Positions 9,701 to 36,769 of a stretch of DNA of 51,830 nucleotides are shown here, piece after piece. The translations under genes were made by a program, and so were the position numbers. The stretch is from a bacterium (GTDB taxonomy: Archaea > Micrarchaeota > Micrarchaeia > Micrarchaeales > CABMGC01). Within the stretch, counting starts at the first letter, position 1; each line of letters starts with the position of its first letter. The notes beneath the pieces are model-generated. The model saw nothing but the letters and a program-made list of their open reading frames with translations, was not told the origin of the DNA and searched no databases. The stretch spans positions 1 through 51,830 of the forward strand of contig JAKBPE010000008.1 of assembly GCA_021829835.1 (NCBI GenBank). Reading direction: 5' to 3'.

Positions 9701-10524
9701 TTGTTCTGAAGTCCGGCCGTGGCAAGCGCCGTGGGGATGCTGTTCTTCAGGGATGTTGCTAAATCTGCATCTACTGCTGTGGACAAGGTCTTTGATAGCA
9801 TTGGCTGCATTGTCTTGGTGAGATTGCTGTTCAGGCTTGAAGCTATATATGAGGATATCTGGCTTGGAGTTGGCCCTGATGTTCCTGAAGGGGTGTTGTC
9901 TCTTGTGTAATTTATGGCTCCTGAAGCCACTATAGGTATTACTTCAGATAATGATTGGGAGAGGCTCTGGGAGAGCGCTGGAGGCAGATTGTTGTATAGC
10001 GATGAGCTTAATGATGCTCCCAAAGAAACGGCTATTGCCTTTGGAAGGACAGTGGCCATGCTTGCAGGGAGCGTGTAAGAGAGGCTCTGGGAGAGCGTGG
10101 ATGATAATGGGTTTACATATGATTTTGCTATGTTTATGGCAGTCTGGTTTGTGCTCTGATTTACAGCAGCGGGCAGGGCAGAATTAAGCGAGTTTGAAAA
10201 TACATTGTAAAGTACAGTCTGGTTGAGCGACTGATTTAAGGCGTTATATACAGCATAGGATACTGATGCAGGAAGCGTCACGTTGAAACTTATTGCATTT
10301 ATCGGTATTTCCATGTTTGTAGAATATTTTGTCAGTGTGCCGTTAACAGGATTCGTAGCCGGTACTGTGACATTCACATTTAGGACAGTAGGAGGTATGT
10401 TTATGGTTATATTCTGCGCTGAGAAAGAGGGAGTTGCAGCATTTAGTAGGGAGATGAGTGAGAGAAGAGTAATTATAGAGATCAGAAAAGGAATCCTGTT
10501 TTTCCGGTAAATATTATGACGCAT
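724..10524 (-). CDS. Giant secreted membrane-anchored surface protein with an internal lysozyme/SLT-like domain
   Basis: The protein is 3266 residues long. It starts with a signal peptide (basic residues, then a hydrophobic stretch ending near NAATPSFS). It ends with one membrane helix (about residues 3210-3235) and a Lys/Arg/His/Ser-rich tail, so most of it should lie outside the cell. Residues about 40-400 are Leu/Ser/Asn repeats with a helical periodicity, 420-840 are Gly/Ala-rich, and 840-960 are Gly/Leu/Pro-rich. The rest is beta-rich with Thr/Pro linkers, many Cys residues and many N-x-S/T sites. Residues about 1660-1790 resemble a lysozyme or VirB1-type transglycosylase: AISEAESSLN (likely catalytic Glu1677), DVGIMQINN, then GGTNFNPW. 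I chose the ATG at 10524 because GGAG precedes it; a TTG lies three codons upstream. It adjoins the VirB6-like operon. A role in contacting or locally opening another cell's envelope is inference. Confidence 0.85.
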   Translation of the reverse strand: MRHNIYRKNRIPFLISIITLLSLISLLNAATPSFSAQNITINIPPTVLNVNVTVPATNPVNGTLTKYSTNMEIPINAISFNVTLPASVSYAVYNALNQSLNQTVLYNVFSNSLNSALPAAVNQSTNQTAINIAKSYVNPLSSTLSQSLSYTLPASMATVLPKAIAVSLGASLSSSLYNNLPPALSQSLSQSLSEVIPIVASGAINYTRDNTPSGTSGPTPSQISSYIASSLNSNLTKTMQPMLSKTLSTAVDADLATSLKNSIPTALATAGLQNNISVLINQSLKNQLNQSIYLASASAISSNTTTKLSKNLIQNISYSLSTQLASDLSSQLSAQLSSSLSSQVSQNLGSGIAAYASEDFASNMGSSLETSIPSYLGGSYPGGYAVNPYQFGSVLGAPPTGVPYTQISNGSYMVTATNPEYMNAGQLSYILLDQMPSIAGRSSAGLGLAIGAATQGLTPYSAMTALQMALPVAVPGAISSSVSYVVGSELGAGLNSGQLLGIGTALSAYSGSPTAAALGTGALYQVQAGLPGTNYGYLLESAGAATGNMGLIAAGSLMGGYSMGGVPGLVAGVGASTGSAALMDAAMLGGEYYQNVNAGYFALSAASMLGYSNYALPASYALAAMQGGGNIGSLTMAMAMLSGSSHLMQAGYALSLLQSGSNPLFAVGALTGSTSLEAAGGALALLQGGTTLGNGLTYAGAYSGSTGLMGSGELMNMYGSGGTVGTSLGALGGYYGGPMAYGAMGLMSGDPYAAGLMANGGYGTALEALSAMQSGVLNQPTTAAFALNLGNLPVGITAVSGLNGGTSAAVGLTTGYGTLLGGILPVSALSSVNFILPQSTVGGLGGLSGLLPGIPGLSGLLNEPLPDINQYISGLGFGNGFGIPGIGSLGGGGCLVAVACEGIQNLFGPLPNLQGILPGLPNGILPGIPGLDLSNFNIPGLNLGSIPGLGLGNILSGFGTSTTYGAGGIVSGTLGANVGIGGATLTSGLNIDLGKAMAASGVPSGMIGAIGSTVGYASAALNAYFVLSNFGSSVVTVTGIGSVSTPFNTNQSIGSSIVINPGTSGSSQSSSPSSSSSSSTIGDQALGIHAITITSNATLNNQVYQQSGTASSSQSGSQPAQPAAQGISPGQSISTNINLIPQKQTISVSAPYQFSPATQVAVYNQQNAPWFLTCPTAPSPDPTNDMYFEANQGMNVAGDACIAVGSTLDTIISISTTVHTNSPCIPLPSPSAISNPLQAEAVLLSTCAYSIVQPLSVENPGILSLNVLTYSPEVDGMLSNGYSTDSYIFQQVPSMAQNAIWTWNVEYANFNNPSAQNSDAARGLLLTTGFCTWSYNYRESTSLTSMSNNYIPFNELISLNGQPAASMLNTQVPGAIQPSISGAIGSQIAGSATSPTSAVIGTIKCIGGAVINGQCVPTGAGSASDLPYTGKDTLPNNTNQKRTLYQPISGAPSPSSVPGSPSSTGLYYLAPTLGTFGEATIDTNVLPLLYFNYSIALTPGVPGQIQGLTRESESIFNPWTYYTPNYSIDQFPINLPGIFIFQNQNNVLSYLPQSGSGINLTANPNPVMYYTFTSSGGVSTPSLSGTISPTTGTPTNLPSQTLTPSATNPSSTGTTPVTPTSLLSNPNPGILGSCPTSSIVLSRQQADACAQQAGFENTGDTVTTLGLDTVVAISEAESSLNSQNMHNNGKVCTKGANAGQESLDVGIMQINNCAHPNMVSCTGTTFSSCTGSATTVVGSFQDAYVLSDGGTNFNPWCTYGPSACGGYGNSAYCQYMPAGDPCENGGTGAGLIATTGIISTPPYLSQMSAYGITSPISMTSPGNGYVYVLFQNPNQNSAYEIAIIKNFPRGYYNATNVPLPPLGTSDAICSSESTCQSTWSQTWSNYWYNVMNVQAYQSYIVDIIPITSLFGAATSGTTLTTPGTTTTGPGTTTTLPTNPQQTSSGLISGAPFNGRNESYNLTFQAAQSSASTGQVLITAQTSTVNYPQGTTINAYCTPSTDPCFIQSPLGTTIASGTGEATYSTPSGLPVGSYVYYVKDAATGQTSTTSLTVEPQVYGLCSPSGLEPSLTQPTDPYAIPLGSTQNYLNPSCNFVPYNISTDANGDIFLTGITTTNGNNPLVVKVANVLINGKICPPTASAICDQFSVGHVPTTTSGISLPTFTEIASSPSGENVYLASPNYGGILVFSGTNLGYLYTIPLTFGQVYPGANPGVSGSASQQQASTSSQLSSLTTTPGYTAVLDIAYWLNNGGLFNYPIPISNVQSGSTIQSADLDQPGNHHPLAIANINGYLYVLDNWKGQLASGTNFNILMLRAINSTGASVPIDPSKFNDIFAQNTCSNANLDTNACYTGGTNAPPPSSCSAGCVPEPDINSPCGSASSVSVGEGYVTPIPSGYNYKCVSDAYSLSTNYYSLATTLSPKETYPPYGWIISATVGSLNFCGAPTCVQTESTILPSSTYAVGPELSSTGCTPVSAAQSTLGSVISWISQFFTGCGTSVSMSVDANGTVSILMPQNTGNNVNQNEPSEFQYPELLISKFNLENYTKVREGTPPFICYTTIGGGTCNAYPNMANIQPPIYTTGDPFFYEENQGSQQILAYANQYYSQFTGGGGTPQNLFLTNGGTTAAGAATSATTTTQEQCSGQLQQFQSPTLCATSQSGILGGSALTAGTQAQNLGQPYQTSVPSFTQLPGNNIPSSVALSSRVSGEALIGYKYTYELTQTFYNFVLSPASGCYATLLGCSSCFAAGSILSHMPPSIQSQTVYSYAPTPEVSSAYLTANVEGGDTYLQYGNGGPYYIQNLSDYGLFLSHHILLNTTGDRLFSSSYVATESPGGVIYLLNAMQQLQFLVQTFTRASQSYQTITSAPVNSGTFPNSGPAYAPITISVSPYTSNYIFIPEYSQPPYSGTVNLFDWYKEEIFSDPTMLYAPQLSGYQRIILAFLDRFNNTIFAPIDADVANITTINLNVSASVDFQNSNQTTLTISGIAGENSYNGFGNINQSFNPLSGGSIYIYMGQDMNYVTANGNIMNPQQAQLCAFGSPTSPYMPVGTPYPSSCNLANPMWRGLQAGASTVTYSAPSSCGPPPQSLLYTTQDTCNIYGAFGLPATCPSQSSGQAFCIPNAVTGNGICNSEYGLVGVTSTASNGFFTYSTNACGIGQVNIQAVYYGDSVQPLTAIQEPLVGSVNSIIGALPAVPVAFNAISYNWAPNESATIASIGLFELGVGDVSAIGIVVTVFVVLAIILYRKEHHKKNQRRHSHSKKPSSHRRNR

Positions 10525-10644
10525 GCGCTCCAATCCACAACGAGATTACGATATCAAGCTATTTATTATTATCCATAATAAACTAACGACTGTATATTTA
10601 CAGGAGGAGTTTACAGAGGAAACGGAAAGGGGCTTAATCACAAA

Positions 10645-10656
10645 ATTATATAAATT
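10645..10656 (+). promoter_or_regulatory. TATA box for the beta-propeller gene
   Basis: The sequence TTATATAAAT lies at 10646-10655, about 30-35 bases before the GTG codon at 10685. Archaeal transcription normally starts about 25 bases after the TATA centre. This predicts a nearly leaderless message and supports the GTG rather than the in-frame upstream ATG at 10523. Confidence 0.55.
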
Positions 10657-10684
10657 ACATCTTCCTTTTAGATTTGGTGTACTT

Positions 10685-11962
10685 GTGCATATAGAAAGAC
10701 GGCATCTGCTTTTTGCTATAATTATAATCTCGGCTTTGCAGCTTGTAAACGCATACAGTCCTTCGTTTATTCAGCTTCCTGTAGGCAGTCTTCCTCGCGG
10801 CATAGTGATAAATCCCTCAACAAATGTCGGATACGTGGCAGATTATGGAAATGGGAATGTCACGTTCGTAAATTTGGGCAGCAGGAGCATAATAAATGAA
10901 GTTAATGCTGGAAGTGGAATCGAAGGCATAGCATTAAGCCCTGACAATGCATATGTTTATGTCACTAATTATAACGGATCTTCTATAAGCGCAATAAATA
11001 CCAACACCTATGCGGTTACAAAGATACCAATAACAAATAGTACGCCTTACGGGATTGCAATAACTCCGAATGGAGAATATGCATATGTTACTTCTCCGGG
11101 AATACCGGTTAATGGGATACAGCCTAACAGCACAGTGTATGTAGTAAGCCTTCAGACTGACAAGCCTGTAGCAGAGATTAAAGTAGGCAGGGGTGCTCAG
11201 GGAATCGCAATTTCGCCTAATGGCAGATTTGCGTATGTAGCCAATTATGACGACTCATCCGTCAGCATAATAAACACCACTACAAACAAGGTAATATCAG
11301 TAATTGCTGTGGGATACGGAGTAGACAATATAGCCATATCACCTAATGGAGATTATGTTTATACAAGCAATTACAACCTGCCTCTTGAACTCTATCTAGG
11401 GAGGCAATTCAACGGGAGTTCAAGCATAATAGATGGCAGGACAAATAAGTTTGTCAAGACAGTCATAGCTGGAGAGGGACCTGATGCGGTAGCTGTTTCG
11501 CCGACAGGAGCATATGCGTATGTAACAAATGCCGGAGATGGAACAATCAGCATAATAAACACCACCACTAACAATGTAACAGGAACGATTGTTGCAGGAG
11601 GTTTTGCAAAGAGCTTCTTTGACGGAATAGCCATATCATCAAATGGGAACTACGCATATCTTGCAGATCCTTATAACAATACTTTGGAGATAATTGACCT
11701 CAGGCTTGTGGCAGTGGAGCCGCCGAAGTTTTCAGTCATCCCTGTAGTTTCAACGCCTCAGTCACTAAATTCTACGCCTAGTGCACCTTCGCAGAGCTCT
11801 GGCAGTGGCAAGAGCAGTTCAGGCACAGCGCCTACCACACCGACAGTAAGCCAGCAGGCCGGCAGCTCCCCTAATTACACAATAATTTATGCAATGATGG
11901 GCGTAATAATAATACTGCTAGTTCTGGTCATCGCACTGCTTATGAGAAGGTCTGGAAAGTGA
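10685..11962 (+). CDS. Secreted YVTN/NHL-type beta-propeller protein with a C-terminal anchor
   Basis: From the GTG at 10685 the product is 425 residues. It begins with a clean signal peptide (HIERRHLL, then a hydrophobic run ending LQLVNA). Repeats of about 42-50 residues follow, with the pattern GIAISPNG.YAYV.N..D.SVSIINTTTNKV; this is the YVTN-type surface propeller signature. A Ser/Pro/Gly/Thr-rich stalk and one C-terminal membrane helix ending in RRSGK anchor it outside the cell. The frame is open from 10523, but the extra residues would bury the signal peptide, and TATA spacing favours 10685. It is divergent to the giant surface-protein gene, and the two may share a regulatory region. 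A role in adhesion or S-layer contact is likely from the family, but no ligand can be read from the sequence. Confidence 0.85.
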   Translation: MHIERRHLLFAIIIISALQLVNAYSPSFIQLPVGSLPRGIVINPSTNVGYVADYGNGNVTFVNLGSRSIINEVNAGSGIEGIALSPDNAYVYVTNYNGSSISAINTNTYAVTKIPITNSTPYGIAITPNGEYAYVTSPGIPVNGIQPNSTVYVVSLQTDKPVAEIKVGRGAQGIAISPNGRFAYVANYDDSSVSIINTTTNKVISVIAVGYGVDNIAISPNGDYVYTSNYNLPLELYLGRQFNGSSSIIDGRTNKFVKTVIAGEGPDAVAVSPTGAYAYVTNAGDGTISIINTTTNNVTGTIVAGGFAKSFFDGIAISSNGNYAYLADPYNNTLEIIDLRLVAVEPPKFSVIPVVSTPQSLNSTPSAPSQSSGSGKSSSGTAPTTPTVSQQAGSSPNYTIIYAMMGVIIILLVLVIALLMRRSGK

Positions 11963-12121: not shown

Positions 12122-12949
12122 TTAGTTCTGAACTTGGAATAATTTTGTCATTTCTTCGAGATTTGTTATTCTGTAGTTCATACCATATAGGTGGTGGACC
12201 TCCCTGCCTACCACACGGATTATGCTTAGATCAAAAGAGTTGAATACGGTTTGGAGATGTGCAAGCTGATTGTTAAGTACGTCCATTGCTTCCTTCTGGC
12301 TCACTCCTACAGCAGTGGATTCTATATACATTATACTGTATGTTGGAAGCTCTCCGTCTGAAATTCGGTCTATTCTTGTCTGGATGATATTTATCTGGCG
12401 TTCTATCTCCTTTATTGTAAGTGCATTTGGCGTTGTGTTCTGTTCTTCCCTTGAAAGCTGGAACTCCAGATATCCTCTTTTGCCTTCCAGAGCCTCCCTA
12501 TATTTCTGTACATCCTCAGGCACTGATACCAGATTGAACTTAAAGGTAAAATTTGTATTCATTAATATGCGCTCCCATTTTTCAGGGCCTGATGAGAGGT
12601 TCTCCTCTTCTCCTGGAGTGATGTTCTCAGCTGAGAAAACATATTTGTAGATATTGCCAGTTAGATAGCCTGTTGCATAATAAAGCCCGTTTGCATTTTT
12701 AATAACACAGTTTTGGGTTTCAGGAACCATATGGTCCTTGGAGAGCTGTATCTGTACATTCATGCGCTTGGTTATGAATGGAAATACCAAAAAATCGGCG
12801 AAATTCATCGCCATTACAAAAAATAGCACTATTATGCCAATTACAAATACTATAGGGGAGAGAATACCATAGTTTGATGCGTTTGAGAGAACAAGCACTA
12901 TTACTGCAATCGATGTTCCCATGTACAATATAGTTTCCATCTCAACCAT
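12122..12949 (-). CDS. Bitopic membrane protein resembling PrgI plus VirB4 N-terminal domain, without ATPase
   Basis: The 275-residue product has two N-terminal membrane helices (about residues 8-25 and 29-55). A soluble domain of about 200 residues follows, predicted alpha/beta. The layout of short helical pair, loop NANGLYYATGYLTGN, paired central helices and a C-terminal strand-helix (DLSIIRVVGREV) recalls the non-ATPase N-terminal domain of VirB4/TraC proteins preceded by a PrgI-like helix pair. No Walker motif is present. Its ATG shares one base with the upstream stop (TAATG), so it is translationally coupled and is the last gene of the VirB6-like operon. The family assignment comes from pattern similarity and needs a profile search; the membrane topology is clear. 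Confidence 0.8.
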   Translation of the reverse strand: MVEMETILYMGTSIAVIVLVLSNASNYGILSPIVFVIGIIVLFFVMAMNFADFLVFPFITKRMNVQIQLSKDHMVPETQNCVIKNANGLYYATGYLTGNIYKYVFSAENITPGEEENLSSGPEKWERILMNTNFTFKFNLVSVPEDVQKYREALEGKRGYLEFQLSREEQNTTPNALTIKEIERQINIIQTRIDRISDGELPTYSIMYIESTAVGVSQKEAMDVLNNQLAHLQTVFNSFDLSIIRVVGREVHHLYGMNYRITNLEEMTKLFQVQN

Positions 12950-13791
12950 TAAGAACCACCAATTGTCTTCTGCCTCATCCGCTCGCTTATAGTTTCAGTA
13001 GGTATCATGAAATCGGGCTCTACGAATGAAAGTATCTCCTTCCCTGTTACTACTGATGCTGTTACTCCGAGAGTCGCGCTTATGCCTCCTGCAAGATCCT
13101 CGGCCTGCGAATAGGCAATATTTGCTGCTTCTTCTTCTGTACCGCCTATAGCGCTTACCATCGCATAAAGTACAAGCGACTGCGACCTTGAACTGCTGAC
13201 ATTGTCAAGGAGATTTCTCCACATTGTTATCTCTCCTCTTATACGCTCCTGCTCTCCGGATTTTAAAGATCCCGGATCTTTTGAAGCCTGCATATTCCTG
13301 TATCTCTCTTCTGATTTGTTGAGTATGTCCCTAAGTTTGTTTATGTAGTCGTCCTTGTTTATCATATACATCTGTGCGGAGAGCTTTATGGGATTCTTGC
13401 TTAGAGTAAGTATCCTTCCGAACATTTTAGATATCTCAGTCTTCTCTTCTTCGTTCATTTCAGTGGAAGATCGGTACATGGGTATTTTTACAAATGCACT
13501 CCCGTATATCTTTCCGTTTTCCCTTCTGACCATCGCGTTTTCAGATGGGGCGAGTGTCGATGCCTCACCGTCACCGAGGATTAGTGTTCTGTCTTTTCTA
13601 TTCTTTACAGCATCTAGCAGATATAGATAATCTTTGGTAAGGAATGCTGCAAGAGAAACAAATATGGCTATTATGGCAAGCAGCGTGTCCAGTACAAATA
13701 TATGAATTGCCTGCGAGATTACTGCGAATACTATGGCCATTGCAGTAAGCATGCCGAAAAGCATGAAGCGGGTGTTAGGCATTGGGCTCAA
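12949..13791 (-). CDS. Second PrgI/VirB4-N-like bitopic membrane protein
   Basis: The 280-residue product has two membrane helices within residues 8-50, then a soluble domain. The domain contains EEEKTEISKMFGRIL, a strand (IKLSAQMYMI), a long charged helix (DYINKLRDILNKSEERYRN) and a late EEEAANIAYSQAEDLAGG helix. The order resembles the N-terminal domain of VirB4 ATPases, in which a strand and two long helices precede a 'L..r...l...L' helix. No P-loop is present. Its start overlaps the 78-residue gene upstream by 17 bases. It is probably a distant paralogue of its downstream neighbour, and the two may form a pair that docks an ATPase encoded elsewhere. That partnership is inference. Confidence 0.8.
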   Translation of the reverse strand: MSPMPNTRFMLFGMLTAMAIVFAVISQAIHIFVLDTLLAIIAIFVSLAAFLTKDYLYLLDAVKNRKDRTLILGDGEASTLAPSENAMVRRENGKIYGSAFVKIPMYRSSTEMNEEEKTEISKMFGRILTLSKNPIKLSAQMYMINKDDYINKLRDILNKSEERYRNMQASKDPGSLKSGEQERIRGEITMWRNLLDNVSSSRSQSLVLYAMVSAIGGTEEEAANIAYSQAEDLAGGISATLGVTASVVTGKEILSFVEPDFMIPTETISERMRQKTIGGS

Positions 13792-14011
13792 CCTCGTAAT
13801 ACAGCTCTGTTACTGGTGTTTCTCCTAAAGTTTTGATTTTATAAAAGAGTATTGGCTTGTTGGTTAGTTCAAAGTGCATGTTACCACTATAGTAATTCAT
13901 CTTTATATGCCTTTTTTGCCTGAATGTTATTCCGATAGTTGGTTCTGCATGGCTAGAAGTGCGATCTGAATTTACAGCTTCAACGTTCAATGCGAAGTTG
14001 TGATTGTTCAT
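13775..14011 (-). CDS. Small soluble beta-rich protein in the VirB6-like operon
   Basis: This is a 78-residue protein starting at an ATG that overlaps the upstream stop as ATGA, which indicates translational coupling. The frame is open further upstream to 14125, but that part lies inside the preceding membrane-protein gene. The product has no signal peptide or membrane helix and is rich in alternating polar/hydrophobic strands (KPILFYKIKTLGE, VTELYYEVE). I recognise no family. Its fixed place between the polytopic subunits and the VirB4-N-like pair suggests a small adaptor of the same complex. Confidence 0.7.
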   Translation of the reverse strand: MNNHNFALNVEAVNSDRTSSHAEPTIGITFRQKRHIKMNYYSGNMHFELTNKPILFYKIKTLGETPVTELYYEVEPNA

Positions 14012-15096
14012 ATCTTCAGCCTTGAGGATAGCTGTGACATTCCGCCTATGAATTCTGCTATCTGCAGGATTATAGCATAGGTAAGCGCCATGATCAATGC
14101 CGGGTAGAATAGTACTGAAAGCCAATATGCATCCATTGAGACCTGGATGTTGTTCAGCGTCTGAACCAGTTGTGAATTGGGATTGAGCGCATTTGTTATG
14201 GCACCTGTTCCCGAGCCATACTGCTGCAACTGAGCCGTATTATAATTTGCCTGGGAGAGGGTGGTGCCTCCTGTGAAGTAGTATGCAACTGAGAAGAGTA
14301 AGGGCAATGCCACATAGAAGCCTATTGCTATTGCTATCATCATGCCTCCCATTGATCTGGTAGGTATAAGAGACCTTAGCACTACCCCGGGAATCAGGAA
14401 TACAGGTATTGCTATGTACATGAATGCCATTATAGCCCAGAATTCAGTATATAGAAGAGCAAGCACATCAAGCTGAATGTCTATCATGGTAAAGGCAGGA
14501 ATGAAGAAAAGATACTGCAGGGCATATTTGAAAGGCTCTGGAATGTATGTGCATCCGAGAGGCCTGCATACCTGAAGATTGATTCCTATGTAGAAGCTTT
14601 CCACTGCAACTATGTCAAAAAGCCTGTAAAGCTCCGTCTGAAGCGCCGTTATTGTATTCATTATGTAGTTTAGAGATGTAACATAGGGATTTGTAGAGAC
14701 TATGAGGCCTGGAACAAGACCGAATAAGACTCCGGTGACGGTGAGGAATAGAACTACTATCAGCGCGCTTGCGAGGGCTTCATAATACTCGCCTATTCCG
14801 AAATTTTTTATTCTCTCGTTCTTTAGCAGGATGCCTGCGCCGAAAAGCATGCTTGCAATGGAGAATGAAACGAAGACTGCAAGGAGTGCTATAGGCATCC
14901 ATTTCATCCAGTAGCTTGATAGTGCCGAGCTTATCTGCAGGCAGTACCAAGGAGCAACTTGCTGTATTGTGCTACTGCTGAGAAAGCCGCTGCATCCTGT
15001 CCCTGCATATCCTTGTGAGGCTGCCTGTGCAGTTATAAAGTGTGGAAGTATGAATAATGCCAGGAGAAAAATAAATATTTTTATTCTGGATTTCAT
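14008..15096 (-). CDS. VirB6/TrbL-like polytopic membrane protein (paralogue 6 of 6 in operon order)
   Basis: The 362-residue product has a signal peptide (MKSRIKIF, hydrophobic run, ITAQA) and about seven further membrane helices. An early helix is followed by a basic segment and GEYYEAL. Later comes IPGVVLRSLIPTRSMGG, then a long helix IAIAIGFYVALPLL. The same 'G..LRS...TR..GG' motif occurs in the five genes upstream and recalls the 'P...LF..tR' core of VirB6/TrbL channel proteins. A Gln/Asn/Ser-rich extracellular loop lies at about 285-320, and the protein ends with GGMSQLSSRLKI. It starts 7 bases after the upstream gene ends and couples to the 78-residue gene by ATGA. Function as a secretion-channel subunit is inferred. 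Confidence 0.85.
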   Translation of the reverse strand: MKSRIKIFIFLLALFILPHFITAQAASQGYAGTGCSGFLSSSTIQQVAPWYCLQISSALSSYWMKWMPIALLAVFVSFSIASMLFGAGILLKNERIKNFGIGEYYEALASALIVVLFLTVTGVLFGLVPGLIVSTNPYVTSLNYIMNTITALQTELYRLFDIVAVESFYIGINLQVCRPLGCTYIPEPFKYALQYLFFIPAFTMIDIQLDVLALLYTEFWAIMAFMYIAIPVFLIPGVVLRSLIPTRSMGGMMIAIAIGFYVALPLLFSVAYYFTGGTTLSQANYNTAQLQQYGSGTGAITNALNPNSQLVQTLNNIQVSMDAYWLSVLFYPALIMALTYAIILQIAEFIGGMSQLSSRLKI

Positions 15097-15103
15097 AATA
15101 CCA

Positions 15104-16207
15104 CTATAAGATTCTCACTAGCAATGAGAGGAGATCCATGCGCTCCCCTATCGCCTGAGAGAAATCAATTATGAATACATCTACTATTATAAGATTTATT
15201 AAAGGTATCAAGGTTAATCCGACCCAGACAATCCCAACATATGCAAAAAGATAAGTTGGCAGTATTGTTGCCAGGTTGTTACCTAACAGGTAGCTGAAAT
15301 ATACTCCTGCAGCATAAAGGACGCTTGATGCGCCTCCTGTAGCTACCCCAGATATAAGCAAACCACTCATAAAAGAGATGCTTGCCGGGTAGACATTATC
15401 GACTGCGACGTTTATGAATCCGTAATTTATTATGGTAAGTATTGGATATAGTATACCAATTCCAAGTGCAAAGGCAATCATTGCCCCGCCAAAAGTACGG
15501 GATATCCCGAATATTCTTGCTATAAGACCTAGTGACATCAATATGGCAAATATTACTGCTGCTGATGATAAGATTATCAACTGAAGGTCGTTCCCTAAGA
15601 CGAATACATATATTGCATCTACAAATGTGCCCAGATATTTGAAAGATATATCTGCATTTATGAAAGTTATCTCCGCTGAGAGCTTTCCGGAGAATACACT
15701 TCCAAGAAAGGAAGGATAGCTTATGCTGACTCCCAGAGTAGGCTGAACGGTACCCATGATGACCATCATATAGTACTGTTCAAGATTGAGCCTTGCTGAA
15801 AAATAGTTGAATGTCGACATATCACATACAGATAGGGAATATATGTTATACATGGAGCCGAGGCATTCTGTAGGAACTATCCCCATATTAGTATTAAGAT
15901 ATCCGAGCGGTAAATTATAGATGATGTTAGCCGCATATGCGAAGGCTATTATGAGAACTATCGAGAGCAATACATCATATATCTTTACCCTTGTCCATAC
16001 AGTTATGTCACTTCTTCCTGTAAATCTGAATAACGCATATATCAGGATAAGTAATCCCAGAATTGCAACTGCCGAGATTCCGGCAACAGAGAACCAGGCA
16101 GTATACATAGGTTGGAAGCATGAGTATAAATTGGTAGCAATGCAGTTTCCGCCTGGTGTCACTATCTGCAGAATGAACAATTGTATAATATTTTGTATAA
16201 ACATCAT
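15104..16207 (-). CDS. VirB6/TrbL-like polytopic membrane protein (paralogue 5)
   Basis: The 367-residue product has about eight hydrophobic segments. It shows the shared plan: helix plus charged turn (FRFTGRSDITVWTRVKIYDVLL), an extracellular Cys-containing loop (GIVPTECLGSMYNIYSLSVCDMS), then GLIARIFGISRTFGGAMIAFALG followed by a helix with a Pro (LYPIL). The shared motif reads ARIFGISRTFGG here, so the Ser after Arg is replaced. The C-terminus is IGERMDLLSLLVRIL. The ATG overlaps the upstream stop by four bases, again ATGA-type coupling. The protein probably assembles with its paralogues into one membrane complex. Confidence 0.83.
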   Translation of the reverse strand: MMFIQNIIQLFILQIVTPGGNCIATNLYSCFQPMYTAWFSVAGISAVAILGLLILIYALFRFTGRSDITVWTRVKIYDVLLSIVLIIAFAYAANIIYNLPLGYLNTNMGIVPTECLGSMYNIYSLSVCDMSTFNYFSARLNLEQYYMMVIMGTVQPTLGVSISYPSFLGSVFSGKLSAEITFINADISFKYLGTFVDAIYVFVLGNDLQLIILSSAAVIFAILMSLGLIARIFGISRTFGGAMIAFALGIGILYPILTIINYGFINVAVDNVYPASISFMSGLLISGVATGGASSVLYAAGVYFSYLLGNNLATILPTYLFAYVGIVWVGLTLIPLINLIIVDVFIIDFSQAIGERMDLLSLLVRIL

Positions 16208-17469
16208 ATCAGCCTCTCCAACAGCCTTCCGCTTGTGAGCGAAGGAGAACCCAGAAAGTCGCCTAAGGCTTCAAGCAGGTCAAATGATATCAGTAATGCT
16301 ATGGAAAAACCTATCAGGTTTAATACGGCGGTAGCTATGTAACTTATGTATGCGTCTATAAGCTGTATGAATACCTGTCCGGGATTTAAGAATGGAAGGC
16401 TCACTATGAATGTAAGTATTGATATGGCATGGGTTAGAAACCAGCTATATATACCAGATGAAGACTGGCAATTTCCAAATCCTGAATTTGGAGAGTTTAT
16501 TATACATGCGGAGTTAGTCGCAGTGTAGATTTGGGAGGAAGCCAGGGCAGTTACAGGATAGTATAATGCAGGAAAGATTATGTAAAAAGATATGAACAAT
16601 GCTAAAAGCGCTCCTCCTGCAGCCCTTGTCCATGGAAATGATCTTAAAAGCACTCCCAAGTATAGGAAGGCAGGAAATAGGAAGTATATTGTAAGCAGTA
16701 GGAAATTTGTAGTGACCCCCAGAAAGAGCGTGATTGATAAGGGAAGCAGAAGAAATACCACAAGTTGATAATACAGCTGAACTCCGTCAAGAGGTTTAAA
16801 TGTTATTGTTGGCACGAAATTTGAGAGGCCCGGAGTTGCCGGAGATGTTGTAAGGGAGAGTGAGCCTATAAGAGAGTAAAGAGGCAGGTTAGCAAGAGTT
16901 AGTATGAATGTTGAAATAGAGGGGCCTATTTGTGTGTTTATTATATTTTGGCATATGCCAGTGTACAGCGCAGTGCCGAATTGGGGAGAAGGCTGACTGC
17001 TATATGAGCTTGCAAGGGATCCGAAGAATCCTGCATAGCTTGACGTTGCTGCAAGCGAACCGGCAATAACCCCTATAAGTATTATATTTAGTACGCTTTC
17101 CAAAGCTTCAGTCCTTGCGAACTGTACAAGCTTGCTTATTCCGAATCCGTATCCTATACCATATGCAAGGGCAAGTATACAGAATACTGCAAGTACCACA
17201 AGAAGGGCAAGCTCTGCTATATTAAGGCCGAGATTCCCATTTACAAATACGCTTGGAAAGATTTGTGCGGTGCCTCCTCCAGTAGGCGCTACGTCGCTCC
17301 CACCAGTAGGAGGTAATGTTACCTGGTTGCTATAAAGGGCACTGCAGGTCTGGGTTGCGAATGTTCCTAGAAAACCTGCAGGAGCTGAAGGAGAAGACGT
17401 GGCAGATTGTGCACTGACACTGCCTATAAGAAGAATGCATAAAAAGATCAAAACTAGAATTTTCCTCAT
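16204..17469 (-). CDS. VirB6/TrbL-like polytopic membrane protein (paralogue 4)
   Basis: The 421-residue product has a signal peptide (MRKILVLIFLCILLIGSVSAQ) and about eight membrane helices. After a secreted N-terminal segment with a single Cys come a long helix, GISKLVQFARTEALESVL and another helix. The core reads LGVLLRSFPWTRAAGGALLALFISFYIIFPAL, matching the operon-wide motif. An extracellular loop with two Cys residues (NSACIINSPNSGFGNCQ) lies before the last helices. The end, LGSPSLTSGRLLERLI, matches the C-terminal pattern of other members. It ends by four-base overlap with the next gene and starts seven bases after the previous one. Confidence 0.85.
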   Translation of the reverse strand: MRKILVLIFLCILLIGSVSAQSATSSPSAPAGFLGTFATQTCSALYSNQVTLPPTGGSDVAPTGGGTAQIFPSVFVNGNLGLNIAELALLVVLAVFCILALAYGIGYGFGISKLVQFARTEALESVLNIILIGVIAGSLAATSSYAGFFGSLASSYSSQPSPQFGTALYTGICQNIINTQIGPSISTFILTLANLPLYSLIGSLSLTTSPATPGLSNFVPTITFKPLDGVQLYYQLVVFLLLPLSITLFLGVTTNFLLLTIYFLFPAFLYLGVLLRSFPWTRAAGGALLALFISFYIIFPALYYPVTALASSQIYTATNSACIINSPNSGFGNCQSSSGIYSWFLTHAISILTFIVSLPFLNPGQVFIQLIDAYISYIATAVLNLIGFSIALLISFDLLEALGDFLGSPSLTSGRLLERLI

Positions 17470-17476
17470 TATACCA

Positions 17477-19021
17477 CTATAGAAGCCTTCCCAGTCCTAA
17501 TAAGCTGGTATCTCCTCCGAGAAGCGAGGAGATCCCTTTTATTGAAGAGAGAAGTATCAGCAGGTTCATTATATTCAGAAGAACGCTTGATACGAATATA
17601 ATCCCATACATGTTTGATATGTTGAAGATGGAGGTAAGTATATTTTCAGGAGTGCATGAGAATCCACCTAGGAATGTGAGTCCAGGTGAAGGTATTCCTC
17701 CGAAGGTAGGCAGCGTTGTAAGAAAATCCTTTGCTGCAAGGATTAGCCCTACTCCTGGAATGAGATATGAGCCTGCTACTTCTGCCTCCCCATAGGTTAC
17801 GCTCCCATAAGGAGGCCAGCAGCCATTGTTGTTTAGTATGTAATCAAGTCTTGGATATACATAAAAATTGATGAATTGAGAATCATAATCTATCGGTGCT
17901 TGGCCCACTACAGTGACTTCCCCGGTTGGGGATATAGTCGAAGATGAAGACGTTTGGATTGGAAGTCCTGTAAGAAGCATAGAATTGTAAGGATTCGCTC
18001 CCTGGATTACTGGAGGTATGCCTATAGGACTGAGTGGATTGTTCGCATTTGCAAGTGCTGCGTATTCGAAAAGAGTAAGCATTGGATATAGAAACAGGCC
18101 TACAATAACTACAGATAGAATAAGCCCTCCTGCTCTTCTTGTCATAAATGATGATCGCAATATTATTCCTGCTGCTAACAAATATGGCCATCCGAATAGC
18201 ATTATGATTATTGCAATAAGCTCTATGACACCTAGATAGGTTACAAGCTGGGCCTCACTTCCTATAAGTAGAGTACCTCCTCTTATCTTTCCGTACAGGT
18301 TAAAAGGCGAGTATGAATAGGTAGCATTGAAAACTGCTGGTCCTGCCGGAGCTATTGCAGGGTTGGCTGCACAGGTTGCCGGATAACAGATGTTTTCAGT
18401 TACTACAAGAGCTGAAAGGGTTCCATACCAGTTTTCAAATATATTTAGGGCATTGATGTTTATTGCTGATTGTGAAGTGATGTTTGCTGCTATTGCATAG
18501 GTAGCTGCCAGCCCATAGTTTATATTTGTAGTTATATCACTGCTTCCTGAACTTGCAGGATTTATTATTCCGGAACAGATGGTGGCTGTTGGGCCTGGAT
18601 TTGATGCACCAGCAATCTGCAGCTGAGAATTGGTAAGATACAGGGGAGAAGTGCCAAGCTGGGCCGAGCTGCATATGTTAGATACTGATTGTGCAAGCTG
18701 TGTGTCAGATTGATAGATTGCACTCCCATAAAAATTAAGTGCGGATATTATTATCACAATTATTACAGCTGTGCCTACTACCTGGGCGAATTCGCCTATA
18801 GCCATCTGTTTTAACCTGCCGTTGTTTATCAGCGTTGCAAGAGCGTACATGACTATTGGTATCATTGCGGATACAAAGATACCTATCATGATGATTGGTA
18901 TCCAATTGTAAAATACATTTATGCTTGAAGTTATGGGATATATTGATTGTGCATGTCCTATTGGTAAATACCAAATAAAGACAAGAAGGATTGAGAGGGT
19001 TATAGGTAAGATTTTTCTCAT
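17477..19021 (-). CDS. VirB6/TrbL-like polytopic membrane protein (paralogue 3, largest)
   Basis: I chose the ATG at 19021 (514 residues). It is preceded by GGAG at eight bases and gives a clean signal peptide (MRKILPITL...GHAQS); the in-frame ATG at 19051 adds ten residues before it. About eight helices follow the family plan: INNGRLKQMAIGEFAQVV after the first mature helix, a large Asn/Ser/Cys-containing external loop (about 115-245), then AGIILRSSFMTRRAGGLILSVV with a Pro-containing helix. A second large external loop (about 320-460) carries Gly/Pro/Cys. The end reads GISSLLGGDTSLLGLGRLL. It lies between paralogues, four bases after the previous gene and seven before the next. Confidence 0.85.
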   Translation of the reverse strand: MRKILPITLSILLVFIWYLPIGHAQSIYPITSSINVFYNWIPIIMIGIFVSAMIPIVMYALATLINNGRLKQMAIGEFAQVVGTAVIIVIIISALNFYGSAIYQSDTQLAQSVSNICSSAQLGTSPLYLTNSQLQIAGASNPGPTATICSGIINPASSGSSDITTNINYGLAATYAIAANITSQSAININALNIFENWYGTLSALVVTENICYPATCAANPAIAPAGPAVFNATYSYSPFNLYGKIRGGTLLIGSEAQLVTYLGVIELIAIIIMLFGWPYLLAAGIILRSSFMTRRAGGLILSVVIVGLFLYPMLTLFEYAALANANNPLSPIGIPPVIQGANPYNSMLLTGLPIQTSSSSTISPTGEVTVVGQAPIDYDSQFINFYVYPRLDYILNNNGCWPPYGSVTYGEAEVAGSYLIPGVGLILAAKDFLTTLPTFGGIPSPGLTFLGGFSCTPENILTSIFNISNMYGIIFVSSVLLNIMNLLILLSSIKGISSLLGGDTSLLGLGRLL

Positions 19022-19025
19022 TGAA

Positions 19026-20264
19026 TCAGCTCCAGAAAGGCCCGCTTCCAATCATGCTACCTATTGTGCTTATTCCCTTATTAAGGCCTACAGCAAAGCC
19101 TATGGTTATACCCACATCAAGCCCTATAAGGAATATCGATTGGAATAAGAATTGGGCAGTATATTCAGTGAAATTGTTTATTACTCCGGGCAGATTGTAA
19201 AGTCCGGTTAATACCTCTTTCCCCGCGGATGCGAGGCCACCATTTGAACTTGCTATAGCTGCCCAAAAGTTCAGAGGTATGCCTATTAAAGGTGTTGTTT
19301 GCGACGGACATACGCCTATCCCATCAAGATTGCAATCTACGGTAGGATTGTTTAGAAGCTGGTTGAGAGGCAGGGAATTAAGCTGATATGGGAGAAGCTG
19401 TGTGGCGTAAGGATTGCATCCGCTCAGGCTGCCTAGGCAGTATGTCCAGCTTACTACATAATAATTCATGGCTATGGTGAGTGGAAAAACAAAATAGAAA
19501 GCAATGGATATTGCTATCAAAGCGTTTGAAGCTTCACGGAGCCTTGGCCCGGTAAATGATAGAGATCGCATTATTATAGCTACAGGAATCACAAGGGTAA
19601 GCGAGAGAGATTCTATCGCATAGAGAGCTAGGAATATTACAAACAAAAGGCCGAATGTTACTACGACCAATGGTTCCAGAATCAGGTATAGTATCGAATT
19701 GTAGTCATATATAATGGTAGCTGCCTGGTCATTCCCTCCCACTGCAATGGCTGGAAGTATCTTTAACCCAAGCACTCTTCCGGAGGTTATGGTTATTGGA
19801 GGTATGAAACTTGCTGCTAAAGATAAGACGTAGTTTACTATGAACGCGTCTATTATGAATAATACACCGGCAGACCACATCTGAGTGGTAAGCTGTATCC
19901 CTTTGTTGAAAAGAAGGTTGCTTATATAGTAGTTTGCAAACTGGAATGGATCACTGTAAGTATATGACGCTCCTTGTGTAAGTGCGCCTCCCACTTCGCA
20001 TGCTGCAAGCGATGCGGTAAACAGGACCGCTATGAGTATAATGCTGAATATGCCTTGGATGTATTCGTATTTTACTGCGCCCCTGAGCTTCTCTCTTGTG
20101 TTGGATGGAAGAAGGCCGCTTATTGCATATACTGCAGAGGTAACCATCAGCACCCCTATAACCAGGAGTACAGTCGCATTGATCCAGCCATCATAATTAA
20201 GGAACTTTAAATTGTATTGGCATTGGCCTATGAATGCTGTAGTTAAAAGTAAAAATGGTTGCAT
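19026..20264 (-). CDS. VirB6/TrbL-like polytopic membrane protein (paralogue 2)
   Basis: The 412-residue product lacks an obvious cleavable signal but has about seven membrane helices. The first mature helix pair encloses LLPSNTREKLRGAVKYEYIQGI, the family's charged turn ending in E.. . The core reads IPVAIIMRSLSFTGPRLREASNALIAISIAFYFVFPL, the most divergent version of the motif because TR..GG becomes an extended PRLREASN segment. An external loop with CLGSLSGC and DCNLDGIGVC supplies four Cys residues that could form disulfides outside the cell. Gaps to both neighbours are two to four bases, so it belongs to the same operon. Confidence 0.84.
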   Translation of the reverse strand: MQPFLLLTTAFIGQCQYNLKFLNYDGWINATVLLVIGVLMVTSAVYAISGLLPSNTREKLRGAVKYEYIQGIFSIILIAVLFTASLAACEVGGALTQGASYTYSDPFQFANYYISNLLFNKGIQLTTQMWSAGVLFIIDAFIVNYVLSLAASFIPPITITSGRVLGLKILPAIAVGGNDQAATIIYDYNSILYLILEPLVVVTFGLLFVIFLALYAIESLSLTLVIPVAIIMRSLSFTGPRLREASNALIAISIAFYFVFPLTIAMNYYVVSWTYCLGSLSGCNPYATQLLPYQLNSLPLNQLLNNPTVDCNLDGIGVCPSQTTPLIGIPLNFWAAIASSNGGLASAGKEVLTGLYNLPGVINNFTEYTAQFLFQSIFLIGLDVGITIGFAVGLNKGISTIGSMIGSGPFWS

Positions 20265-20266
20265 AA

Positions 20267-21709
20267 TTACACAAGTTTGAGTTTTCTGCCTAGACTGAGC
20301 CTTATGCTTCCGCCTAGCATTTTTGCTATGTTGTCAGTAAGCGAATAAAGAATCATTAAATCTATCACTCCTAGCACGTAGAACTGTAATATCAAGTATA
20401 AGTTGTATTCGACAAGCATGTTAAATAGTGGGAAGATGTTGCTTCCGCTGCTGAATGCCATTGGAAGATAACCCATTATGCTGGCAACTCCCTGTACGTT
20501 GGTAGCTATGTTATTTCCTACCGGATTATTGAAAATACTTGTTGTTGTGGTGACTATCGAGGAACATGCCGTACTTAAAAATCCTTGCGGCAGATTTGTA
20601 AGATTTTGACAGAATGAAAGCGCTGAGTTTGATGCCTGGACTAGAGGTGAAAAGCTGACTGGACCTAAAGGCGTACAGAAATTGGTTCCAACTACATTGC
20701 AGAACCAGTTTGATATTGGAGCGTTGAGTAGTATCAATATTGAAGGCCATATTATAGCTATGCCTATTGCAAACGCGATGAGAGTTCCTCCTATTCCTCT
20801 AAAAAGAGGTAGAGACCTCATTACTATGCCTATGGGAAAAAGCACCGCAAGGCCTAAAAAGATGAGGAATGGGAGTATCACTATCTGGGAAGAGTAGAAT
20901 ACCATAGCAGGAACTACAAGATACATTATGAAGTCGATAAGCAGGGAGGAAAACTGCCCAAGATATATAATATTTACTCCCAAGAGGAAACTTTGATATA
21001 GATATACACCACTTACTCCAGAGCGGAACACGGGGAAAGCGGCTAATGCAGGCAATAGTGTATCCAATGCGGGATTCGGAATAGGAATACCTGAAAAGGA
21101 GAGACTTATTGACTTTACAAATGATACATCAAATACGTAAGGTGCAAAATTGTCTATAGAAAGGTTAGCATGGTTGTTTACAGTGCAGAGGTAGTTTTCC
21201 GAGTAGAGTGCAAGGCTCTGAACGCTTGTAGGATACCCCTGTATTGCAGATGAACTCCCGTTTAGTATAAGGCCGATGCTGCTTACGAATGATATCGAGA
21301 GGAATATGATAGCTATAAGGACTGCTGTTTTTATTACTTCCCAATATTCTTTCTGTAGCCAGTTGTTTATGTTAGAGGAGGGAATAAGTTTACCAAGAGC
21401 GTACGCTATTGCAATTACAAGGAATGATATCATTAATGCAAGAATTGAGAGGGCTATTGCGCCACCAGGTATGTTATAAGTGAGACCGTAAGTATTCATC
21501 AGGTTCTGAAAATCCGAAGCGGAAGAAGCTGTTACAGCTGCATTGCCTGTAGGGATAGTGGTTCCCGTCTGTATCCCGAATAATGAATTGCATTCATAGC
21601 TTGGGCTGAATGCAGGTATACCTATTATTGTTGCATGTACAGAGGATACCATGAAGAGGGCCAGAATCAGGGATATGATTCCGGTTTTTGCTGCCCTATG
21701 ACTATCCAT
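20267..21709 (-). CDS. VirB6/TrbL-like polytopic membrane protein (paralogue 1, first gene of operon)
   Basis: The 480-residue product begins with a signal peptide (MDSHRAAKTGII, hydrophobic run, SSVHA). It has about eight helices. The charged turn is IPSSNINNWLQKEYWEVIKTAV, and the core is FPIGIVMRSLPLFRGIGGTLIAFAIGIAIIWPSI, close to the operon consensus. An external Cys-containing region (WFCNVVGTNFCTPLGP and SFCQNL) precedes the last helices, and the C-terminus is KMLGGSIRLSLGRKLKLV. The ATG lies about 26 bases after a TATA-like box, which suggests a leaderless operon message. Confidence 0.85.
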   Translation of the reverse strand: MDSHRAAKTGIISLILALFMVSSVHATIIGIPAFSPSYECNSLFGIQTGTTIPTGNAAVTASSASDFQNLMNTYGLTYNIPGGAIALSILALMISFLVIAIAYALGKLIPSSNINNWLQKEYWEVIKTAVLIAIIFLSISFVSSIGLILNGSSSAIQGYPTSVQSLALYSENYLCTVNNHANLSIDNFAPYVFDVSFVKSISLSFSGIPIPNPALDTLLPALAAFPVFRSGVSGVYLYQSFLLGVNIIYLGQFSSLLIDFIMYLVVPAMVFYSSQIVILPFLIFLGLAVLFPIGIVMRSLPLFRGIGGTLIAFAIGIAIIWPSILILLNAPISNWFCNVVGTNFCTPLGPVSFSPLVQASNSALSFCQNLTNLPQGFLSTACSSIVTTTTSIFNNPVGNNIATNVQGVASIMGYLPMAFSSGSNIFPLFNMLVEYNLYLILQFYVLGVIDLMILYSLTDNIAKMLGGSIRLSLGRKLKLV

Positions 21710-21936: not shown

Positions 21937-23661
21937 TTAATGCTTTATATGGATGATGTGGATCTCTTCTTGTGTCTTTTTGAGTATGTCCTCTGTGTTC
22001 TTTACAAAAGAGGAGATATTTTCAGCATAGGTAGTTGCAGAGCTTGTTTTAGTCAGTCCGAGGAGATAGTTGCTGTAGTATGGATTGGAAAGATGATGTG
22101 TTATTGATTTGTCAATAGGACCATACAGTTTGTTGTATATCCTTACATATGCATGATCGAATTGGCTTCCGTTTATCTCTCCTTTTTCATATTTTTCCTT
22201 TAGTTCTGAGAGTACTCCAGGAGTAGTTGATTCGTGTTGGGTAGTTTCTTGGGATAATGAAGTTGCAGAAACAGTTTGAGACTCTGTCTGCGAAGAAGAG
22301 CTTCCAGTATATTTTTCTACCTTCTCAAGTCGTTTTTTTACATTTTCATGCATTATTGGTGCTATATCCTTGAGGTTCTTTCCTTCTTTTATATTTGAGT
22401 CTATATCTTTGATAATGCTTTCAAGTTTTTGATAGGTATTTGGTTTTAGTGACTTGTCCATATTTTTTAGTTCTTTTTCAATTGAAGATTTTGCCAATTC
22501 CAGATCAGATAACGCAGCTTCTACATGCCCAGTATATAGAGTACCTTCTGGTTCTTTATCAGACTCAACTTCCTCTACACGTATCTGCCTTCTTAATTTT
22601 TGGATTTCTGTCAGTTCCTTCCAGGCATTTCTTGAGTTTAGCCTTTGGCCTGAAGAAACCTGCAATGGATCAATGGTCTTGCTGAGCAGTGGAGTAAATG
22701 CCAGAAGAATATCTGAAGTGTTGTATTTTTTGTTGTAATTATCCTCTAGGGATTTGAGTTTCTCTTTCTTCTCATCTATTGATTCCTGCCTACTTTTTAT
22801 CTCCTTGCCGGCTTCCCCATATAAAAGCGTTCTGAGGGCAGCCTGTTCCGCATAAGGTCTTGGAGTTGGTATTTTTTCGTCTTTTGTAGCTGATTCGGGC
22901 AGTTTTGGTTTATAAGTTCTGTATGTATCCTGTATAGATTTAGAGACACCCCATAAAATTGGTGTTGTCCAACGTAAAATAGTACCGAATTCTAGTTTTT
23001 TTTCCTTTTTTTGTGTATTTTTGGATTCCAGAGCTTCTTTTGAACCTCTTGGACCTTTCATAAGATTTAGCCTGGTTGCTGTTCCTTTTATTGCTGATGC
23101 GGCTGAACCTGCCAGAGTCTGCTGCTTGAGGATATTTGCGCCAGGAGCCTTTGCAGCTGAACCGCTAGCCTGATTCCCTTGTAGTTTGGAAGAAGAACTT
23201 CCTGGCTTTATGCCTCCTTCGGAAGCTGATCCCTTCTTGCCTCGCATGCCTCTTGCTTGGGCTAGAATACCTTCCAGCGTTCCGCGCCTTTTCTTTTCGT
23301 AATCGTTTTTACCACCCTTGTTTCTGGGTTTTGCCTTGTATTTAATGAAAGGATCCAGGTATGCCCTCATTCCATAACCGGATTTGGCCATTGATCCCCT
23401 GCTTGCACCTCCGTAAGATCCCATTCCGCTTAGGAGCTGGCTTATTCCAAAAACATTAAAGAAACTGAACCCTCTTGTTGAACCTGCCGCAGCGGCGATG
23501 AGTATTATTATTATCACTATCGGTATAAGCGCATTTATGGCACCTACAGAGAGTATAATCCATGGGATTGCTAAGATAGAGAGAAAAATTGCCGCGTAAG
23601 TTGCCTTAGGCGTGGCTTTTGATAGATGGCTTTTGGGTTCTGTCTCTTGGTTGTACATCAT
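21937..23661 (-). CDS. Two-helix membrane protein with long basic/coiled cytoplasmic domain, unknown family
   Basis: The 574-residue product has two hydrophobic segments at about residues 20-60. A Gly/Ser/aromatic stretch (FSFFNVFGISQLLSGMGSYGG) follows, then a strongly basic linker with many Lys/Arg/Gly/Ser residues (about 90-220). After that comes a charged helical region with likely coiled coil (ESIDEKKEKLKSLEDNYNKKY; about 290-450). A Ser/Thr/Gln-rich linker and a helical end complete it. A tandem ATG ATG marks the start, with AGGA just upstream and a TATATATGG box beyond. No family is recognised. Both flanks carry solo IS-end fragments in the same orientation. It could be a cytoplasmic partner of the adjacent VirB6-like complex or a transferred gene. 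Confidence 0.8.
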   Translation of the reverse strand: MMYNQETEPKSHLSKATPKATYAAIFLSILAIPWIILSVGAINALIPIVIIIILIAAAAGSTRGFSFFNVFGISQLLSGMGSYGGASRGSMAKSGYGMRAYLDPFIKYKAKPRNKGGKNDYEKKRRGTLEGILAQARGMRGKKGSASEGGIKPGSSSSKLQGNQASGSAAKAPGANILKQQTLAGSAASAIKGTATRLNLMKGPRGSKEALESKNTQKKEKKLEFGTILRWTTPILWGVSKSIQDTYRTYKPKLPESATKDEKIPTPRPYAEQAALRTLLYGEAGKEIKSRQESIDEKKEKLKSLEDNYNKKYNTSDILLAFTPLLSKTIDPLQVSSGQRLNSRNAWKELTEIQKLRRQIRVEEVESDKEPEGTLYTGHVEAALSDLELAKSSIEKELKNMDKSLKPNTYQKLESIIKDIDSNIKEGKNLKDIAPIMHENVKKRLEKVEKYTGSSSSQTESQTVSATSLSQETTQHESTTPGVLSELKEKYEKGEINGSQFDHAYVRIYNKLYGPIDKSITHHLSNPYYSNYLLGLTKTSSATTYAENISSFVKNTEDILKKTQEEIHIIHIKH

Positions 23662-34658: not shown

Positions 34659-34670
34659 TTTTTATTACCT

Positions 34671-34991
34671 TTATCTGCGCCAGCCGTAGCCGCCCCAGCC
34701 TCCACGCCAGCCCCCCCAGCCCCAGCCTCCCCACCATCCGCCATAAACAGGCATGAGCATTGGAGCAACAGGATAATAACCATAACCAGGATAGACCCCT
34801 ACAGGATATGGATATGTTACACATCCTTGAAGTAAAAGTGCACCGGCAAGAATTGCTGCACTTATAATGCTTGATCTTCTTACAGAAGGTCTTCTTTCAG
34901 TGCTTATGGGTGGTTGTTCTCCCCTTTGTAGAACTTTGATTTCTAATGCGTTTATAGGTTGTCTGGTTCGCATTGTTGTTTCATTTGCCAT
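34671..34991 (-). CDS. Small lipoprotein-like Gly/Trp/Tyr-rich protein
   Basis: The 106-residue product starts at the ATG at 34991, which has GGTGA five bases upstream; an in-frame ATG at 35027 lies inside the previous gene. A charged N-terminus of about 45 residues precedes AAILAGALLLQGC, a good lipobox-like end. The mature part is Tyr/Pro/Val-rich and then Gly/Trp-rich (GGWWGGWGWGGWRGGWGG). It is paralogous in layout to the genes on either side. Confidence 0.8.
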   Translation of the reverse strand: MANETTMRTRQPINALEIKVLQRGEQPPISTERRPSVRRSSIISAAILAGALLLQGCVTYPYPVGVYPGYGYYPVAPMLMPVYGGWWGGWGWGGWRGGWGGYGWRR

Positions 34992-35008
34992 TTGTTTCAC
35001 CTTTTTAA

Positions 35009-35584: not shown

Positions 35585-35599
35585 GTTTGCACCTGTTTA

Positions 35600-36550: not shown

Positions 36551-36769
36551 TTTATCATCTTTTATTCTAATATAATATCTTGTATTTTTTGATATATATA
36601 TCTTTACAGAGTATTTATTGGTTACTATATACTCACTCGGCAAAAGACGTATTTTCCGCAGTAGTTTTATGGTTTTGTTTTACAGGCTTTTTGGGCTTGG
36701 ATGCCTCCTGAGGTTCTTAACACTTAATATATTTTGAGGGGTAAAAGATATTTTGCAAGGTATAAGATT

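Follow-up and report, generated by a model that had tools for sequence, protein, structure and literature searches.

The nearest described archaeal systems to the one considered here are Ced in Sulfolobales and Ted in Thermoproteales, with the components CedA/TedA, CedA1/TedC, CedB/TedB, CedD and CedE. CedB corresponds to one part of the VirB4 N-terminal domain and CedD to another, and archaea have no homologues of VirB3 and VirB8 (PMC11868833). In the open-licence titles and passages searched for type IV secretion or conjugation in Micrarchaeota, and for Ced or VirB4 in DPANN archaea, we found no description of this system. Here we describe an operon on contig JAKBPE010000008.1, whose 51,830 nucleotides (the window) belong to a Micrarchaeota genome of 992 kb in 38 contigs that is 89% complete (G000). 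The operon, at positions 12122-21709 on the minus strand, encodes six VirB6-like polytopic proteins, a small soluble protein and two membrane-anchored proteins, B1 and B2. We put at roughly 70% the probability that it is the membrane core of a machine derived from a type IV secretion system (T4SS) and carried by most Micrarchaeota, in which the six VirB6-like subunits would form a hetero-hexameric channel, VirB4 would be split, and DNA or host material would be imported.

The six-gene operon and its relatives

An earlier note on this DNA, made from its letters, described nine packed genes in a DPANN-like archaeon, six of them for polytopic paralogues. The genome is indeed micrarchaeal, and all nine open reading frames (ORFs) are present, with spacings of +2, -26, +7, -4, +7, -4, -17 and -1 bases. 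The proteins of the window have no Pfam or NCBIfam match over cut-off, and no secretion-type ATPase is encoded within it. The genes, with a tenth that lies upstream, are as follows (TM, predicted transmembrane helices).

21937..23661, minus: 574-amino-acid protein; N-terminal TM segment, long charged tail; kept upstream of A in relatives
20267..21709, minus: A, VirB6-like subunit 1; 480 amino acids, 7 TM; position-1 orthologue in the other arrays of the taxonomic order
19026..20264, minus: B, VirB6-like subunit 2; 412 amino acids, 7 TM; the position-2 clade contains all 39 sequences, support 0.55
17477..19051, minus: C, VirB6-like subunit 3; 524 amino acids as listed, 6 TM; the true start may be an internal ATG
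16204..17469, minus: D, VirB6-like subunit 4; 421 amino acids, about 8 TM; nearest to the single-copy polytopic gene of locus B (see below)
15104..16207, minus: E, VirB6-like subunit 5; 367 amino acids, 5 TM; the position-5 clade contains all 39 sequences, support 0.95
14008..15096, minus: F, VirB6-like subunit 6; 362 amino acids, 6-7 TM
13775..14011, minus: 78-amino-acid soluble protein; its ORF shares 4 bases with the end of F; orthologue in L013
12949..13791, minus: B1; 280 amino acids; two N-terminal TM and a VirB4 N-terminal-type domain
12122..12949, minus: B2, a paralogue of B1; 275 amino acids; two N-terminal TM and a soluble domain

The 574-amino-acid gene belongs to the operon, probably as its first gene, because it takes the same place before the six genes in other genomes (L013, L043, L069, L072, L073 and L085). 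Proteins related to its product are also encoded upstream of locus B in L028. The 78-amino-acid protein is, as far as seen, confined to the genus of the window. Among relatives of C, a C-terminal tail GDxxLxGLxRLL is kept.

Each of the six polytopic proteins has 5-8 predicted TM, and all pairs match one another in profile comparisons (P 96.7-99.7%, E 4e-10 to 8e-26), whereas an unrelated membrane family, compared with the six as a control, gave P <3%. On this measure they are true paralogues, as the earlier note had it. The F protein is 95% identical to its counterpart in record JAJZKQ010000005.1; among 60 relatives, F is matched in 56, in some cases through paralogues, and B1 in 54. Of 223 genomes in the phylum, 201 have a B2-type protein. 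Families f21, f22 and f24-f26 had none of the parts in the genomes tested, and some genomes of family f23 have a single polytopic gene together with a two-helix protein.

A search for the same gene order in related genomes, as had been proposed, shows that 25 arrays of the window's taxonomic order carry these six genes in identical sequence, and six-gene arrays occur 18 more times in nine other families. In most relatives within the taxonomic order, the consensus arrangement is pilin, six-TM protein, A to F, B1, B2, ATPase (about 505 amino acids), a protein of about 100 amino acids, a zinc protein, and proteins of about 245 and about 800 amino acids, although individual members are missing in some genomes. 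Family f15 of the same class has this order with two pilins in front (L099), and in several genomes of three families the pilins, B1/B2-type proteins, ATPase and six genes share one operon. The window's own genus and G048 have the operon split up. The arrangement is thus far beyond chance, since it recurs both in the arrays of the taxonomic order and in other families.

The number six is almost invariant. Among arrays complete or near-complete on their contig, 43 of 44 contain exactly six genes when the family profile is run on the DNA; these are the 25 and the 18 just mentioned, and the one array that could not be resolved is L120. The arrays were taken from search hits with no selection by gene number, and they are not a random sample. 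Seven genomes (G062, G069, G114, G127, G142, G143 and G144) have two six-gene arrays each, and three of these (G062, G069 and G114) have an additional single polytopic gene elsewhere (L118, L129 and L132). In the second array of family f3 (L117:4125-16331, L128:6505-16750), some positions encode proteins of 730-1140 amino acids, which recall the VirB6 proteins with long extensions in Rickettsiales.

When 242 sequences are placed in a tree, every one of them has its nearest neighbour from another locus at the same position (242 of 242), and within the taxonomic order the six positions form clean lines. As to correspondence between the order and distant families, the tree gives a clear answer at positions 2-5 but not at 1 and 6, and assignment by profile gives mixed results; we therefore make no claim of six orthologous lines across the phylum.

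We call the six proteins VirB6-like, and do not claim membership of that family, because of their gene place between pilin and ATPase, their topology, a pilin-like N-terminus and a weak match to the VirB6 of structure 7o3v. In profile comparison, the N-terminal part of the six can be aligned with the pilins (P 61%, E 8e-5), and a similarity between pilin and polytopic protein has been reported for VirB2/VirB6 and CedA1/CedA (PMC9905601). Comparison of an AlphaFold model with VirB6, a check that the earlier note had suggested, was equivocal: the model of F has low confidence (pLDDT 55), and 7o3v VirB6 has the top TM-score among the Foldseek hits listed for it (0.41 by target), at a non-significant E of 5.4. 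The earlier label VirB6/TrbL is accordingly carried by context, topology, the pilin-like N-terminus and this one weak structural match, and not by sequence, where neither a TrbL Pfam hit nor a significant VirB6 profile match was obtained.

B1, B2, the ATPase and the domains of VirB4

If the operon encoded a type IV-like machine, its ATPase had been predicted to lie elsewhere in the genome, and this prediction holds: the gene is on contig C27.

L067:2822-4357 (G000 contig C27): ATPase of the CedB/VirB4/TraC class, over the Pfam cut-offs for DUF87, AAA_10 and P-loop_TraG

There the gene is together with those for the protein s98 and the zinc protein (L067:2822-5049). The same class is present in all 60 relatives, with a near full-length orthologue in 57, so that a T4SS-like reading does not founder on a missing ATPase in related genomes; in most relatives the gene is directly downstream of B2. 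The orthologues match the NCBIfam models CedB, CedD and CD1110-VirB4 at E 1e-16 to 1e-19, with TraC also among the best, all far below the equivalog cut-offs. The CedB model, likewise under its equivalog cut-off, gives E 1e-18 to 1e-23 in the ATPase orthologues and locus B. By these matches the ATPase is a homologue of CedB and not CedB proper. Its Walker A (VGITGxGKS) and Walker B (LDEAWK) motifs are conserved across 26 sequences. Walker A starts at residue 67-72, and the protein consists of the P-loop domain alone, which leaves no room for a VirB4 N-terminal domain.

B1 and B2 appear to supply that domain. Described previously as bitopic, both proteins instead carry two N-terminal helices, followed by a soluble domain of about 215 residues, and their profiles match each other (P 96.5%, E 7e-10). 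The B1/B2 family also matches, over 170 columns, a Bacillales plasmid protein encoded between PrgI and a VirB4-type ATPase (P 96.2%, E 2e-9), whereas other reference families give P <=2.5%, with only the ATPases' own N-terminal region higher (55-73%). The Bacillales split protein in turn matches residues 22-209 of full-length VirB4 (P 86%), and the N-terminus of its partner ATPase matches VirB4 residues 205-394 (P 97.7%). Because a direct comparison of B1/B2 with full-length VirB4 is not significant, the argument runs via the Bacillales family. Searches of the PDB with the B1 and B2 profiles returned nothing significant. For a weak AlphaFold model of B2 (pLDDT 49), a Foldseek search of 350,542 chains puts R388 VirB4 or inner-membrane-complex chains at five of the top 30 ranks, none individually significant. 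Profile comparison thus shows B1 and B2 to be VirB4 N-terminal-type domains present as separate membrane-anchored proteins. Since B1 and B2 match the N-terminal domain and the ATPase has only the P-loop domain, VirB4 is, as judged from these alignments, divided into three proteins: B1, B2 and a soluble ATPase motor.

Pilins, partner genes and the rest of the window

G000 encodes three VirB2-like pilins, on contigs C6 and C12, with profile E-values of 2e-29 to 4e-22. C12 carries two of them and the six-TM protein (L141), and C38 carries s245 and p800 (L142). In other genomes the ATPase, pilins, s98, zinc and six-TM proteins, s245 and p800 are all in one operon with the six polytopic genes. The pilins show the pattern typical of VirB2/TrbC. 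Those of G000 reach at best 20 bits against the PF04956 (TrbC/VirB2) cut-off of 27.9, which one pilin in a relative exceeds, and the best match of the pilin profile in the PDB is the R388 pilin TrwL (E 0.0018). Two of the partner proteins are the following.

L140:8552-9733 (C6): VirB2-like pilin fused to an extracellular domain that is rich in Ser and Gly and about 270 residues long
L041:917-3322 and L142:8190-10571: p800, about 800 amino acids; two TM, a large part outside the cell, and a C-terminal domain in the cytosol that is well conserved

Long open frames of 373-403 amino acids similar to the pilin fusion occur in G001, G003, G004 and G005. p800 was found in 29 of 39 genomes tested; it has no Pfam relative, and a PDB profile search gave no significant match.

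A second, compact T4SS-like locus, locus B (L027-L036), comprises a pilin, one polytopic protein, one two-helix protein, an ATPase, small proteins and a 740-amino-acid P-loop protein. Each of the six polytopic proteins matches its single polytopic protein, and for D the match reaches P 99.9% and E 3e-31. The 740-amino-acid protein is present in 43 of 60 relatives and was not found in G000. Some genomes, G007 and G006 among them, have its gene far away or on another contig. A tblastn search of plasmids with the locus-B protein gave no match.

Other genes of the window are listed below.

724-10533, minus: giant secreted protein of 3269 amino acids, encoded next to the operon, with a lysozyme-like SLT_3 domain
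10523-11962, plus: predicted surface beta-propeller protein with a C-terminal TM; neighbour of the giant gene, and present in L013 as well
33855-36643, minus: series of low-complexity Gly/Tyr/Pro-rich genes, secreted or lipoprotein-like
39186-40400 and 51318-51767, minus: two TnpB-like transposon genes with almost the same C-terminus, the second gene being short

The SLT_3 domain spans residues 1653-1761 of the giant protein (25.9 bits against a cut-off of 27), and export of a lysozyme-like domain by an archaeon is odd. We considered this protein as the VirB1 of the system and rejected it, because the domain is confined to this genus (4 of 60 relatives).

Models for the machine and comparison with known systems

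In the machine that we propose, the six VirB6-like subunits would together make up one hetero-hexamer, an inner-membrane channel or pilus base, in which each would have its set position and which B1 and B2 would dock to a hexameric ATPase. Pilins would be extracted from the membrane to build a pilus of conjugative type, reaching a neighbouring or host cell, and the motor would move DNA or other host macromolecules inward. The cargo and its direction may correspond to DNA import as in Ced/Ted, or to exchange with a host as in Patescibacteria. A hetero-hexamer is suggested because six distinct, hardly lost and co-ordered proteins accompany a six-fold motor; VirB4 of R388 forms a hexameric ring, a hexamer of dimers (PMC9259494). 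It is the best explanation for this set of proteins, at roughly even odds of being right. The earlier idea of a hetero-oligomer gains strength from the constant number. The earlier note called six copies in one operon unusual; several VirB6 proteins per operon do have a precedent in the five of Rickettsia (PMC2653234). A fuller version, in which the hetero-hexamer is obligate, with fixed positions and a three-polypeptide VirB4 motor, is used at host contact, and in several families is present as two channels side by side, falls just short of an even chance in our view.

The same constancy bears on whether each of the six instead forms its own homo-oligomeric channel, or is a specialised accessory such as a surface domain, pilin guide or substrate selector, within a machine still derived from a T4SS. 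Such roles would fit the divergent extensions of the VirB6 copies in Rickettsia (five; PMC2653234) and in Anaplasma and Ehrlichia (four; PMC7648143), and the very long versions at some positions here (L117, L128). However, independent specialised channels would be expected to gain or lose members, whereas 43 of 44 arrays have six genes in fixed order and duplications involve whole six-gene arrays, and we judge this alternative unlikely. The same machine might also serve another cargo, exchanging protein or nutrients during host attachment, like the Saccharibacteria T4SS needed for epibiotic growth. A near phylum-wide presence (201 of 223) in small-genome, probably host-dependent archaea is consistent with this, as are the T4SS genes essential for epibiont growth of Ca. 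S. epibionticum (PMC12102498) and the VirB4-type giant proteins of Nanohaloarchaea, for which host interaction has been proposed (PMC10266531). Nevertheless, nothing indicates a protein substrate, and the archaeal relatives of known function (Ced) move DNA, so that we regard such exchange as a serious but tentative possibility.

Several results weigh against a T4SS-derived hetero-hexamer. The VirB6 of R388 assembles as a pentamer instead of a hexamer (PMC9259494). PF04610 (TrbL) has no match in the whole genome, and none of the six has a Pfam TrbL hit; their profiles give P <=1.5% against VirB6 candidates from Bacillales and against a protein of haloarchaea termed 'type IV secretion system protein', even with 300 sequences, and the F profile finds nothing significant in the PDB. 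The AlphaFold models are weak (pLDDT 55 and 49), their alignments being shallow because they contained only sequences from the window, L013 and L014, and none of the Foldseek hits reaches significance. Many families have their six-gene arrays unlinked to the ATPase. The gene set yielded no VirB8, VirB10, VirB11, relaxase or coupling protein: VirB8-VirB11 are absent from the conserved genes next to the arrays, although no whole-genome profile search was aimed at them, and the locus of the six genes showed neither a VirD4 coupling protein nor a relaxase, although no search was aimed at relaxases. Finally, the P-loop class of the ATPase also includes HerA repair helicases. The lack of a VirB6 profile match and the HerA-like P-loop domain speak for a membrane complex built on a HerA-like ATPase, without transport across the envelope. 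We consider such a complex very improbable, because VirB2-like pilins, VirB4 N-terminal-type proteins and the ATPase lie in one operon with the six genes in several genomes of three families. These same components bear out the earlier suggestion of a T4SS-like machine.

The exchange of material between DPANN archaea and their hosts is still poorly understood, and for one phylum there is now a concrete, near-universal candidate machine, many of whose parts can be named. The constant six makes subunit stoichiometry accessible to genetics, in contrast to the R388 VirB6 pentamer, and the split VirB4 is a natural system in which to study motor and membrane anchor separately.

Among bacterial systems, plasmid conjugation in Bacillales (MPF-FATA type) shares the split VirB4, which in several plasmids is beside PrgI, and the T4SS of Patescibacteria shares a VirB4 that is near-universal in ultrasmall epibionts (PMC12102498). 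Unlike the micrarchaeal machine, these systems have one VirB6 candidate, a VirB4 that is whole or in two parts, PrgI and cell-wall hydrolases. The rvh T4SS of Rickettsiales resembles it in having tandem VirB6 paralogues, some very long, in host-dependent organisms, with components spread over several loci, but has four or five VirB6 proteins, their number varying by genus, and is a bacterial system with VirB8-VirB11 and VirD4. The SPEARE proteins of Nanohaloarchaeota likewise belong to DPANN archaea, carry an ATPase of the VirB4/TraG-like class and have been proposed to act in host interaction (PMC10266531), although there the ATPase is fused to a giant adhesin and no six-gene array has been reported. 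Ced and Ted, also archaeal derivatives of T4SSs, share a VirB2-like pilin, a polytopic VirB6-like protein and a CedB-class ATPase; no relaxase is known for their DNA import, and neither a relaxase nor a coupling protein was seen in the set described here. The micrarchaeal machine, from another phylum, differs from them in its three-part VirB4 with ATPase-free, membrane-anchored N-terminal proteins, in the additional s98, zinc, s245 and p800 proteins, and in having six VirB6-like proteins where Ced and Ted have one or two.

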